Source of the DNA: an uncultured Lachnospiraceae bacterium
Lineage (GTDB): Bacteria > Bacillota > Clostridia > Lachnospirales > Lachnospiraceae
Direction: 5' to 3'
Assembly (NCBI GenBank): GCA_945913255.1
Contig: CAMEDC010000024.1
Coordinates: 1-49,048 of the forward strand
DNA length: 49,048 nucleotides
Shown here in pieces: positions 12,456-16,662 of the stretch. The translations under genes and the position numbers were made by a program. Below the pieces are notes generated by a model. That model was given only the letters and a program-made list of their open reading frames with translations, was not told the DNA's origin and did not search any database. Numbering within the stretch: position 1 is the first letter of the stretch; the number at the start of each line of letters is the position of its first letter.

Positions 12456-12706
12456 AAGAAAAATTTAGGCTTTGAACAGTAATTTCAGAATTCCTCATTT
12501 TTTTGCAGTAATCATCGAGATTTTTCCCGGAAACAGGGAGACTCTTTATTGATATATTTAAGATATATAAAAGGTTTTTTTATAATAGCAAATATATTAC
12601 ATGTTGACAAGTTCATTTCCCAATTTTCACTATTATTTCACTATTTTTCTTAATTCCCCTTTTCCCATGTTTTCCTTTCCCCCGTTTTTCATCTGATTAT
12701 TACACT

Positions 12707-12730
12707 GAAGCTTCGGTCCAGGAGAAGCTT
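12707..12730. promoter_or_regulatory. GAAGCTT repeat pair upstream of the exporter promoter
   Basis: GAAGCTTC (12707-12714) and GAAGCTT (12724-12730) form both a direct and an inverted repeat, ending 13 bases before the -35 box. A regulator site is possible; no factor is implied by sequence. Confidence 0.4.
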
Positions 12731-12743
12731 AAGAAAAAAACAG

Positions 12744-12772
12744 TTGACAGGACGCACACATTGTGATTGAAT
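12744..12772 (+). promoter_or_regulatory. Promoter of the ABC exporter leader
   Basis: TTGACA, a 17-base spacer and TTGAAT with an upstream TGA (extended -10). Transcription would begin near 12779, giving a leader of about 355 bases before the first exporter gene. Confidence 0.65.
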
Positions 12773-12833
12773 AGAACATGTCGGCGGCTTAGTCACCCAT
12801 CGGCAAATATCAGAGAAAGAGAGGTAACGAACT

Positions 12834-12917
12834 ATGACTTTGTTTATTCATGCGGGATTTACAAAATTAAATAGCTACATAAGTAATGACGCAGTTACCT
12901 CGGTTTCGCTTACATGA
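12834..12917 (+). CDS. Candidate 27-residue leader peptide
   Basis: The ATG at 12834 follows AGAGAGG by nine bases and reads 27 codons (MTLFIHAGFTKLNSYISN, then DAVTSVSLT) to a TGA at 12915. It lies between a good promoter and an intrinsic terminator 45 bases further on, ahead of a multidrug-type ABC exporter operon. This is the arrangement of BmrB upstream of BmrCD in Bacillus subtilis, where ribosome pausing on the leader lets transcription continue. Its sequence is not similar to BmrB that I can tell. Translation is inferred, not shown. Confidence 0.5.
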   Translation: MTLFIHAGFTKLNSYISNDAVTSVSLT

Positions 12918-12962
12918 TTCGTTTGCACACATGCAATCTGAAATTTTATGCAATGCTTTTGT

Positions 12963-12995
12963 ACCCGGGCAGCTTTTGTCCGGGTTTTTTATTTT
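12963..12995 (+). terminator. Intrinsic terminator in the exporter leader
   Basis: ACCCGGGCA (12963-12971) and TGTCCGGGT (12977-12985) form a nine-pair stem with one G-U pair. A run TTTTTT-ATTTT follows. The exporter genes are downstream, so this would act as an attenuator. Confidence 0.8.
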
Positions 12996-13012
12996 CCAAA
13001 AAAGGAAAATAA

Positions 13013-13036
13013 CCTGTCCGGGAACATACCGGGCAG
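13013..13036 (+). promoter_or_regulatory. Second leader hairpin that can compete with the terminator
   Basis: CTGTCCGG (13014-13021) pairs with CCGGGCAG (13029-13036). The first arm can instead pair with CCCGGGCAG of the terminator (12964-12972), and the second with TGTCCGG of the terminator, so mutually exclusive structures are possible. Confidence 0.55.
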
Positions 13037-13134
13037 AAAACGGGGAGAAAAGCACGCGAAATCGAGGGCGCTTTCCGCACAGATATACCTGATGCGGAAA
13101 AGTGCACATAGAAAGATAATAAGGAGGGGATATT

Positions 13135-14862
13135 TTGAAGAAGTTAAGAAACTATGTTCTTCCGTTCTGGAAGAGCTACACATTTGCCATCGCAAGTCTG
13201 CTTCTGGCAATCCTGCTGGAAATGCTGACGCCTCAGATCACAAAGATTATTGTAAATGAATCCTTTGTAGGCGGCGATTTTTCCAGATTCGGATACCTGC
13301 TGGCAGCTCTGGTGCTTCTGGGCATCGGAAGAAGTGTATTCGGCTATTGCAAGGAATTCACTTTTGACAGAAACAGCCAGACCATCGGAACTGAGATGAG
13401 AAAGGATCTGTTTGCCCATATTCAGACACTGTCCATGGACTACTTTGACACGACCAACACCGGAGAACTGATGGCGAGAGTCAAGGACGATGTGGACAAA
13501 GTAAAAGACGCATTCGGCATGACGGGAATGCTGATTATACAGATTTCCATTTACATTGTTTCCATACTGTACTGTATGTTCAGCTTAAGCCCTCTGCTTG
13601 GGCTTCTGCCTCTTGCGGTCATGATTTTCGGTGCCGGGCTGAGCTTTGTGCTGGAAAAGAAATTTGATAAAGTATACACCGACCTCAGTGAGGAAAATGC
13701 GGCGCTTACCACCGTAGCGGAGGAAAACCTGGCCGGTGCCAGGACAGTAAAAGCTTTTGCAAGAGAAAAATTTGAAATTTCCAAGTTTGCAAAGCACAAC
13801 AGACAGTACTATGAGCTGAACATGGAGCAGACCAGGCTCATGACGAGATTCTATCCCGTATATCAGTTTATCGGAGCCGTACTTCCCGTAGTCTGTGCCA
13901 TTCTGGGCGGCGTTCTGGTAATCCGGAACAAGATGGACCTCGGTTCCCTGGTGGCATTCGTAGAATACTCCAGAGACTGTACCTGGCCGCTGGATATGTT
14001 TGCTGAGTTGGCAAATGAGCTTTCTTCCTCCTTTGCCTCCTACAAAAAAATCAAGGCGATCGCAGATGAGAAGCCGAAGCTTACCGAAAAAGCGGATGCG
14101 GTACATCTCGATGAAATACAGGGCAATCTGAAATTTGAAAATGTAGCTCTGTCCCTGGATGACAAAACCATTCTGGAAGGAATTGACCTGGAACTTCCCA
14201 GAGGAAAAACGCTGGGCATCATGGGTGCAACGGGTTCCGGAAAGAGCTCCATTATCAACCTGCTGCAGCGTTTCTATGATCCGTCCGAGGGAAGCATTTC
14301 CATCGACGGTGTGGATATCCGTGACATGGAGCTTTCCCAGGTTAGACGAACCAGCTCTGTTGTCATGCAGGATGTATTCCTCTTTTCCGATACCATTGAG
14401 GAAAATATCAAAATGGGCAAGCGCAAAACCATGGCACTTCCCGAAGTAAAACGGGCTGCAAAAATGGCGCAGGCCGAAGGCTTTATTGAAAAAATGGAGG
14501 AGCAGTACAACACTGTTATCGGTGAAAAGGGTGTCGGACTCTCCGGTGGACAGAAGCAGCGGATCAGTATCGCAAGAGCAATCTCCAAAAAGAGCCCCCT
14601 CCTTGTACTGGACGACTCCACTTCTGCTCTGGACATGGAAACAGAGCGGGAAATTCAGTTGATGTTAAAAACAATAACCGATTCCTCCAAAATCATTATC
14701 GCGCATCGTATCTCAGCGGTAAGAAATGCGGATGAAATCATTTATCTCGATAAGGGTAAAATCGCCGAGAGAGGTACCCATGAGGAGCTGCTTGCCCGTA
14801 AGGGGCTCTACTATGCAACCTACATGGCGCAATACCCTGAGCAGAAGAAAGAGGTGATATAA
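13135..14862 (+). CDS. ABC exporter half-transporter with degenerate catalytic site (BmrC/TM287-like)
   Basis: This is an inner-membrane half-transporter of the multidrug type (575 residues). An N-terminal six-helix type-1 exporter domain spans about 1-310. The ATPase domain has Walker A GATGSGKSS near 364, the Q-loop VMQDVFLF, signature LSGGQ near 468 and Walker B LLVLDDSTSALD near 490. The catalytic glutamate is replaced by aspartate (DDST rather than DEAT), the hallmark of the degenerate subunit in heterodimeric exporters. The TTG start follows AAGGAGGGG. The next gene starts right after its stop. Substrate is unknown; drugs, lipids or peptides are possible. Expression is probably controlled by the upstream leader. 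Confidence 0.93.
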   Translation: MKKLRNYVLPFWKSYTFAIASLLLAILLEMLTPQITKIIVNESFVGGDFSRFGYLLAALVLLGIGRSVFGYCKEFTFDRNSQTIGTEMRKDLFAHIQTLSMDYFDTTNTGELMARVKDDVDKVKDAFGMTGMLIIQISIYIVSILYCMFSLSPLLGLLPLAVMIFGAGLSFVLEKKFDKVYTDLSEENAALTTVAEENLAGARTVKAFAREKFEISKFAKHNRQYYELNMEQTRLMTRFYPVYQFIGAVLPVVCAILGGVLVIRNKMDLGSLVAFVEYSRDCTWPLDMFAELANELSSSFASYKKIKAIADEKPKLTEKADAVHLDEIQGNLKFENVALSLDDKTILEGIDLELPRGKTLGIMGATGSGKSSIINLLQRFYDPSEGSISIDGVDIRDMELSQVRRTSSVVMQDVFLFSDTIEENIKMGKRKTMALPEVKRAAKMAQAEGFIEKMEEQYNTVIGEKGVGLSGGQKQRISIARAISKKSPLLVLDDSTSALDMETEREIQLMLKTITDSSKIIIAHRISAVRNADEIIYLDKGKIAERGTHEELLARKGLYYATYMAQYPEQKKEVI

Positions 14863-16662
14863 TTGGCAGTCAATTCATTTCGTGAGGACGAACACCTGCA
14901 GGCAACGGACGCAAAGAAGATTGCCGCCAGACTTCTGGGCTATCTGAAGGGCTACAAAAAAGAAGTCGTTGTGGTTCTGATTGCCATGGCCGTTACCGTC
15001 GCCATCAGCCTGTTCAACCCCATATTGATAGAAGATGCCATCGACAGATATGTGGCACAGCTCGACTTTCAGGGCTTAATCCGCCTGGCTGTTTTCGCGG
15101 TGGTAATCAACCTTGTATACGTATTGATGGTCAAGGTTCGTATGTATGTGATGTCACACATCTCAAACAAGATTATCCTGTCCATCCGTGAGGAAGTTTA
15201 TGAACATATTCAGACACTCTCCTTCACCTTTTTTGACAGCAGACCAACCGGAAAAATCCTGGCTCGAATCATCGGGGATGTCAACTCTCTGAAGGATGTG
15301 CTGGCAAAGGCGGTCACAAACATCATTCCCAACACCCTGACCATTATCGGTGTACTGGTGATTATGTTTGTCAAGGACTGGAGACTTGCTCTATCGGCAC
15401 TTTGTACTCTTCCTTTCATGGCGGTCGGCATTTTTATGATGGAGAAGGCAAACCATTCAAGATGGCAGATTGTACGAAAGAAGGCCTCAAATGTAAATGC
15501 CTATGTGCACGAGGACATTGCCGGAATCAGGGTGGTGCAGAGTCTCAATGCCACAAAAGAAACAAAGGCACAATTTGATGAGCTTGCAAACGAGCAGTGT
15601 GCATCCTTCATCCATGCCTGCCGGGTGGCAGACCTTTTCTTCCCCATCATTGATACCTGCTGGGGAGTCAGCCTGATGATGCTGTATCTGGTAGGTGTAA
15701 AACTCATCGGAGCACCGGAAATCACACTGGGTGTGCTGGTGGCATTCGGTTCCTATGCAACCATGTTCTGGCAGCCCATCGCAAACATAAGCACCTTCTT
15801 CAACCAGCTGGTGACAAACCTTTCTGCCGCAGAGCGTGTGTTTGATATTCTCGACACGGAACCGGAAATCAAGGATGCTCCCGACGCTGGAGAGCTTCCC
15901 GAAATCACCGGTGAAGTGACTTTTGAAAATGTTTCCTTTACCTATGATGAAGGAACGGAGAACGAAACCAAGGTGCTTGACAATGTAAGCTTTACCGTTA
16001 AGCCCGGAGAGACCATCGCACTGGTAGGTCCCACCGGCGCAGGAAAAACCACAATTGTCAACCTTATCAGCCGGTTCTACGATATTCAGCAGGGAACCAT
16101 CGCTATCGACGGGTATGACCTGAAGAAGGTAAAAATCAATTCCTTGCGCAAGCAGATGGGCGTTATGACACAGGATAACTTTATTTTCCACGGAACCGTC
16201 CGCGACAATATCGCATACGGAAAGCTGGATGCAACAGATGAGGAAATCATTGCTGCTGCCAAAGCTGTCAATGCCCATGAATTCATTATGAAAATGGAGA
16301 AAGGATATGATACGGAACTGAAGGAACAGGGCGCCGGTCTCTCCATCGGTCAGAGACAACTCATTGCTTTCGCAAGAACCATGGTTTCCGAGCCCAGAGT
16401 TCTGATTCTGGATGAGGCAACCTCAAGCATTGACACCCATACGGAGATTCTGGTACAAAAGGGAATCGAAGCTCTTCTGCACGGCAGAACCAGCTTTGTT
16501 ATTGCCCACAGACTTTCCACCATCCAGAATGCCGACCGCATCTTTGTCATCAATGACGGCGGCATCGTGGAACAGGGCTCCCCTGCGGAACTGATGCAGA
16601 AAAAGGGCTTCTATTACAACCTCTACATGGCACAGTTTGCCGGCGCAGAGGAATCTGCATAA
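14863..16662 (+). CDS. ABC exporter half-transporter, catalytic partner (BmrD/TM288-like)
   Basis: This 599-residue half-transporter is the partner of the preceding gene. It has a six-helix membrane domain (about 20-330), then Walker A GPTGAGKTT near 388, a divergent signature LSIGQ near 492 and an intact Walker B with catalytic glutamate, LILDEATSSID, near 514. A consensus Walker B here and a consensus LSGGQ in the other subunit complete one good ATP site; the divergent LSIGQ and the DDST form the degenerate one. The TTG start abuts the previous stop codon, with GAGGTGAT as ribosome site, so the two are co-translated. A terminator lies 28 bases after the stop. Confidence 0.94.
   Translation: MAVNSFREDEHLQATDAKKIAARLLGYLKGYKKEVVVVLIAMAVTVAISLFNPILIEDAIDRYVAQLDFQGLIRLAVFAVVINLVYVLMVKVRMYVMSHISNKIILSIREEVYEHIQTLSFTFFDSRPTGKILARIIGDVNSLKDVLAKAVTNIIPNTLTIIGVLVIMFVKDWRLALSALCTLPFMAVGIFMMEKANHSRWQIVRKKASNVNAYVHEDIAGIRVVQSLNATKETKAQFDELANEQCASFIHACRVADLFFPIIDTCWGVSLMMLYLVGVKLIGAPEITLGVLVAFGSYATMFWQPIANISTFFNQLVTNLSAAERVFDILDTEPEIKDAPDAGELPEITGEVTFENVSFTYDEGTENETKVLDNVSFTVKPGETIALVGPTGAGKTTIVNLISRFYDIQQGTIAIDGYDLKKVKINSLRKQMGVMTQDNFIFHGTVRDNIAYGKLDATDEEIIAAAKAVNAHEFIMKMEKGYDTELKEQGAGLSIGQRQLIAFARTMVSEPRVLILDEATSSIDTHTEILVQKGIEALLHGRTSFVIAHRLSTIQNADRIFVINDGGIVEQGSPAELMQKKGFYYNLYMAQFAGAEESA

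Follow-up and report, generated by a model that had tools for sequence, protein, structure and literature searches.

The locus analyzed here raises the question of how an RNA leader with a short ORF of its own could control the two ABC transporter genes behind it. Both genes lie on the forward strand of the window (the whole 49,048-nucleotide stretch of Lachnospiraceae DNA), as do all leader features described below. They start with TTG, occupy positions 13135-14862 and 14863-16662, and encode proteins of 575 and 599 amino acids (subunits 1 and 2), each with the Pfam domains ABC_membrane and ABC_tran. In subunit 1, LDD replaces the usual LDE; subunit 2 retains LDE and has a signature altered to LSIGQ. 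Adjacent genes of this domain composition with one degenerate ATP site are the hallmark of a heterodimeric ABC exporter, which the two products are predicted to form. Among the matches listed, the solved bacterial two-gene exporters nearest to subunit 2 are TM288 and TmrA, followed by BmrD.

Architecture of the leader

The leader opens with the promoter-like sequence TTGACA-17-TTGAAT (12744-12772, hexamers at 12744-12749 and 12767-12772), read from the sequence. Both hexamers, claimed as a promoter in the original prediction, are present and are found 17 nt apart in all six close relatives (L011-L016); a sigma-70 rule calls no promoter in the leader region. At the place of the promoter spacer (12750-12766 in the window), a CCACA-TTGTGG-like inverted repeat is seen in most of these relatives and is perhaps an operator. 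A 5' hairpin follows at 12779-12806 (columns 7-34 of the RNAalifold consensus for the seven leaders of the window's clade). The extended Shine-Dalgarno sequence (SD) of the leader ORF, GAAAG followed by GAGGTAAC, spans 12815-12828, shows little or no variation in alignments A1 and A2, and would be arm 1 of an anti-antiterminator. The original prediction also described a 27-codon ORF with a ribosome site, and this is what we find: GAGAGG precedes the ORF (MTLFIHAGFTKLNSYISNDAVTSVSLT), whose 27 codons and stop occupy 12834-12917. Near its 3' end lies a switch segment, X (GTTACCTCGGTTTC, 12894-12907; core GTTACCTCGG, 12894-12903), which is complementary to the SD or to the 5' arm of the terminator. 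An ORF runs over X in 94/94 dereplicated leaders.

A terminator search placed the 5' arm (T) at 12963-12972 and the 3' arm (T') with its T-rich tail at 12976-12992. The intrinsic terminator that had been claimed (12963-12985 plus a T-run) was thus recovered, as one hit against a mean of 0.6 in shuffles, and T and T' are paired in 98.4% of cells in the clade of seven. Folding of the leader, a check that the original prediction had proposed, gave a structure better than 100/100 shuffles (z -5.8). An SD-led leader ORF that lies 5' of an intrinsic terminator and is conserved in relatives has the layout of a ribosome-controlled attenuator.

Occurrence in related genomes

A search with the exporter returned 20 loci; identity is 53-90% at 17 of these. 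The original prediction had suggested looking for the same layout upstream of orthologous exporters, and an SD...X leader ORF indeed lies ahead of 16/16 assessable orthologues (L018 has too little upstream DNA). The named relatives that carry the exporter are Lachnospiraceae, Roseburia, Acetatifactor, Clostridiales, and Limivivens records. No SD...X element was found at L027 and L028, where the exporters are 31% identical, and L030, one of the 20 exporter loci, lay outside the element search. At L021 an extra GNAT-like gene (1320-2501, a weak Pfam match) is inserted between leader and exporter. None of seven paralogous exporter loci in the window's genome has the leader element.

Covariance models were built from 20 leaders (R1) and from 57 leaders (R2), and both refind their training sequences. 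The window's whole genome contains one covariance-model match, its own leader. R1 yielded 52 matches in 45/397 genomes of the family (E up to 0.01), from which we dropped the eight that, among the matches listed, were judged to be chance hits at the start or within the body of coding genes (L062, L078, L083, L084, L085, L086, L088, and L089). R2 found the leader, with E up to 0.001, in 46/397 genomes of the window's family, in 21/295 genomes drawn from the order (these two counts each include one match judged coding, L112 and L144), and in 2/398 genomes drawn from the phylum, both of which belong to the window's family; with E up to 0.01, it matched 13/41 genomes of the window's genus. From the family, order, and phylum counts, the leader class looks confined to the order and mostly to one family.

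Two simpler finders were rejected. Whole-leader DNA similarity matched 2/61 genomes, one of them the window's own. The exact SD...X pattern occurred in 8/397 genomes, and its reversed control gave just as many matches (8, in 7 genomes). Taken alone, the pattern therefore proves nothing; its matches L033 and L035 fall in coding sequence, and L036 was judged from its match to be chance.

We compiled 104 leader loci. An ABC transporter follows 54 of them, a number that includes the window and 15 other loci found via the exporter, which makes 38 the fairer exporter count; an RsgA-type GTPase follows 33, and 16 are without assignment. Identity to the window's subunit 1 is 39% or more at 49 of the ABC-linked loci and 24-29% at the other five. 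L126, L131, L133, L135, and L136 are leaders from the same genus ahead of ABC transporters that are 24-29% identical to this subunit. In 16 of the 33 RsgA-linked loci the target is a GNAT-RsgA fusion (L050, L052, L055, L065, L067, L074, L075, L098-L100, L103-L105, L107, L108, and L138; domains assigned by Pfam on L075), and one further locus has a GNAT-like match only. All five RsgA-linked genomes that were checked hold another, higher-scoring RsgA elsewhere. Among the 16 loci without assignment, some leaders are followed by a GNAT gene (L109, L123, L140), an M3 peptidase (L115, L119), or a PF09818 ATPase (L137), kinds that were each identified by Pfam from a single representative protein, and L112 and L144 are judged chance. 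The contigs of L034 and L143 end too early for a target to be assigned, and at L056 the RsgA start lies at the contig end. At L145 (G172) the leader is followed, by eye, by a transposon-type ORF with some residues masked. The window's genome has a second RsgA (L147, C23:20500-23000), upstream of which no leader of the class was found; the short ORF there is of another kind and is accompanied by a hairpin resembling a terminator.

Pairings of the switch segment

The best-supported pairing of the leader is one that the original prediction had overlooked. The SD, GAGGTAAC at 12821-12828, is complementary to GTTACCTC at 12894-12901 within X (inverted repeat I1). In the window, the SD-to-ORF duplex was matched by 12/5000 dinucleotide shuffles of the ORF (taken in the shuffle tests as 12836-12919, offset by 2 bases from the true 12834-12917). 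For the class we used 94 leaders, obtained from the compiled loci after removal of L112 and L144 (R2 matches judged coding or chance; 104 to 102 loci) and dereplication of 100-nt stretches at 85% ungapped identity, so that some relatedness remains. When SD and X were swapped between these leaders, the mean SD:X energy was -13.95 kcal/mol for a leader's own partners compared with -11.47 kcal/mol for swapped ones (0/5000 permutations); by class, the permutations reaching the observed match were 0/5000 for exporter, 11/5000 for GNAT-class, and 0/5000 for RsgA-class leaders. The SD:T control showed no match within leaders (2351/5000). Without being guided to either, RNAalifold recovered both the terminator and SD:X from the seven leaders of the window's clade.

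The second pairing, X:T, is matched within leaders across the class. Own X:T pairs average -12.56 kcal/mol and swapped ones -10.08 kcal/mol (94 leaders, 0/5000 permutations), with T taken from the top-ranking hairpin no more than 260 nt from X, a rule that seems wrong for L024, L066, L077, L080, and L145. The match is seen in exporter leaders taken alone (0/5000), is weak in the GNAT class (69/5000), and is not seen in the RsgA class (1396/5000). In L046 and L048, T departs from the common CCGTGG form, yet X:T amounts to 11 and 14 pairs. The window's own X is weakly complementary to T (12963-12969): the pairing was reached by 1551/5000 shuffles of X, and that of the whole ORF with T by 2435/5000 shuffles. 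X:T in the window itself is the weakest link of the attenuator reading.

The original prediction had asked whether relatives conserve the leader ORF and its pairing, and whether the pairing covaries. SD:X, the terminator, and, at the level of the class, X:T are conserved, but X:T in the window taken alone is not convincing. SD:X covaries beyond shuffles over 57 leaders (0/500), but stays within shuffles in the clade of seven (80/500), where 95.9% of cells have X:T paired, again with no covariation.

Folding with a ribosome on the leader

We folded each transcript up to the 5' terminator arm while stepping a 32-nt ribosome footprint along the ORF (88 leaders here and 92 for the fold that includes T', those with a terminator far from X being left out of both sets). 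With one of the first three codons in the P site, at least 5 X:T pairs formed in 65, 67, and 64 of 88 leaders; at codon 8, this fell to 17/88. Mid-ORF footprints let SD:X re-form, and late footprints hide X. A lesser rise in X:T near codons 10-11 (33-34/88 leaders) has no explanation in the model. Masking of SD and start codon raised the expected X:T pairs from 2.14 to 7.54, compared with 4.55 for a foreign T, 4.71 for a foreign X, and 2.99 for a shuffled X (88 leaders). The window itself, with its start masked, gave 2.0 expected pairs versus 7.77 with the T arms of other leaders, and at best 4.1 in the footprint scan; L015 stayed at or below 0.9 throughout. When T' is included in the fold, the equilibrium favors the terminator, and masking the SD does not change this (X:T 0.62 versus T:T' 9.56 pairs, 92 leaders); the proposed switch must therefore be kinetic.

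The matching of SD:X and X:T within leaders and their recurrence in relatives favor an attenuator. On balance we consider it probable that the leader is a ribosome-gated transcription attenuator ahead of the two exporter genes, and that translation inhibitors which hold ribosomes at start codons are its likely inducers. With no ribosome on the leader, X would close on the SD, the terminator would form, and the exporter would be off. A freely translating ribosome would cover X, again leaving the terminator to form and the exporter off. A ribosome held on the first three or so codons, by contrast, would cover the SD and leave X free to pair with T before the 3' arm T' emerges, so that RNA polymerase could continue into the exporter genes.

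Alternative readings

A related possibility, which we think unlikely, is that the leader senses the initiation pool: SD:X would compete with free 30S subunits, read-through would report the number of idle ribosomes binding to the leader SD instead of stalling by drugs, and X would mimic the anti-SD tail of 16S rRNA. X does resemble the 16S 3' tail, and the SD pairs about equally well with the tail (mean -14.85 kcal/mol) and with X (-13.95 kcal/mol) in the 94 leaders. RsgA, a GTPase of 30S assembly, is moreover a frequent target. A productive ribosome would soon cover X, however, and occupancy alone should be short-lived; sequence cannot separate this reading from the start-stalling attenuator.

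Another candidate trigger is the nascent peptide, which in the manner of erm-type leaders would stall its ribosome at a set codon. The original prediction had proposed looking for a conserved leader peptide, and among the exporter leaders we find none: the codons of 47 such leaders are near-random outside X. The 27 RsgA-linked leaders share EIV.EY...TSV residues, so that their peptide is partly conserved, and a role of this peptide, or an additional role of the RNA, is possible there. X lies in one and the same reading frame in 88/94 leaders, which would suit an arrest peptide and counts against a pure RNA element, since the latter needs no frame; in 6/94, X is read in another frame. A ribosome stalled over X would also hide it. 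We regard control by an arrest peptide as distinctly improbable, and given the near-random codons, the ORF of exporter leaders probably measures out a length and does not convey a message, so that its peptide would hardly matter.

We give little credence to a leader that regulates nothing, in which a constant share of transcripts would pass the terminator and the ORF would be there by chance. The weak X:T of the window is what such a leader would show, but SD:X and X:T are matched across the class and the element recurs before two kinds of gene.

Finally, the induced state of the original prediction, in which terminator arm A pairs with C and arm B with D, can practically be discarded: the complementarity is real (A/D is repeat D9, B/C is repeat D10), but hairpin C/D (13014-13036) lies 3' of the terminator, would be transcribed after the decision, and has no counterpart between terminator and exporter in 6/6 close relatives (L011-L016), so that this wiring is unsupported and the hairpin is probably outside the switch. 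What the 16 orthologous leaders do support is the general idea of that prediction, namely attenuation under ribosome control as at bmrCD, though with a leader peptide of unrelated sequence.

Discussion

Ribosome-controlled attenuators as a kind are already known from bmrB, vmlR, and hflXr, and the start-stalling attenuator proposed here shares features with each. The bmrB leader of bmrCD in Bacillus subtilis has, in the parts of the account drawn on here, 53 codons and a terminator within the ORF, and its own SD is not placed in the switch (PMC4191407). The present leader differs in all three respects, with 27 codons, a terminator that begins 46 nt after the stop codon, and an SD that would be a switch arm. 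It is closer in logic to vmlR of B. subtilis, which, in the sections we consulted, likewise proceeds by anti-antiterminator, antiterminator, and terminator and is induced by stalling at the uORF start; there, however, the uORF is a tripeptide, the SD is single-stranded before the anti-antiterminator, and the gene downstream encodes an ABC-F protein (PMC9226507). With its 27 codons and an SD within a predicted helix, our leader is not of the vmlR type as these sections describe it. We infer that the leader is an attenuator turned on, like vmlR, by ribosomes kept at its start, with its own SD as the anti-antiterminator arm.

The rli80 leader of hflXr in Listeria, as far as the excerpts used here describe it, is also a small-ORF attenuator, and the gene it governs is the second copy for a ribosome-associated GTPase, which would also hold for the RsgA-linked leaders; it differs by a 14-aa peptide with an RLR motif and by its target, HflX instead of RsgA (PMC6310831). 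The window's leader peptide has no RLR motif and so is not of the hflXr/macrolide type. At the toiL uORF of E. coli, according to the portions of the report considered, tetracycline or retapamulin hold ribosomes at the start codon and induce the downstream gene; unlike here, it is topAI translation that is controlled, with Rho-dependent termination as a consequence and no intrinsic terminator described in those portions (PMC12121999). Start-codon stalling is thus a known trigger at other uORFs, which supports the trigger proposed here.

No Rfam family matches the window above its gathering score; in 12700-13140 the sub-threshold hits are anti-hemB (23.3 bits, threshold 49.5) and L20_leader (19.7 bits, threshold 58.7). 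In the open-access literature, a scope that leaves most subscription papers outside, we found no description of an anti-antiterminator arm formed by a leader's own SD, of a 16S-like X, or of RsgA targets. The SD of E. coli trpL is reportedly proposed to be masked by its own leader.

More tentatively, and with less than even confidence, we raise the possibility of a new, order-specific class of RNA switches, in which an ORF-borne mimic of the 16S anti-SD tail would vie with the ribosome for the leader's SD and, when pushed aside by a ribosome waiting at the start, would disable the terminator. Such a switch would be a peptide-independent sensor of start-codon occupancy, with exporters and additional RsgA proteins as its translation-stress regulon. 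Were this true, the extra RsgA, in some cases fused to an acetyltransferase, would represent a novel resistance factor that acts by ribosome protection. If the attenuator reading is right, many gut commensals would share a reader of start-codon occupancy that switches on exporters with no need for an arrest peptide, and the leader would mark the additional RsgA (GNAT-fused in some lineages) as a candidate antibiotic-response factor, in parallel to HflXr. The leader may then serve as a sequence signature for translation-stress genes in uncultured relatives.
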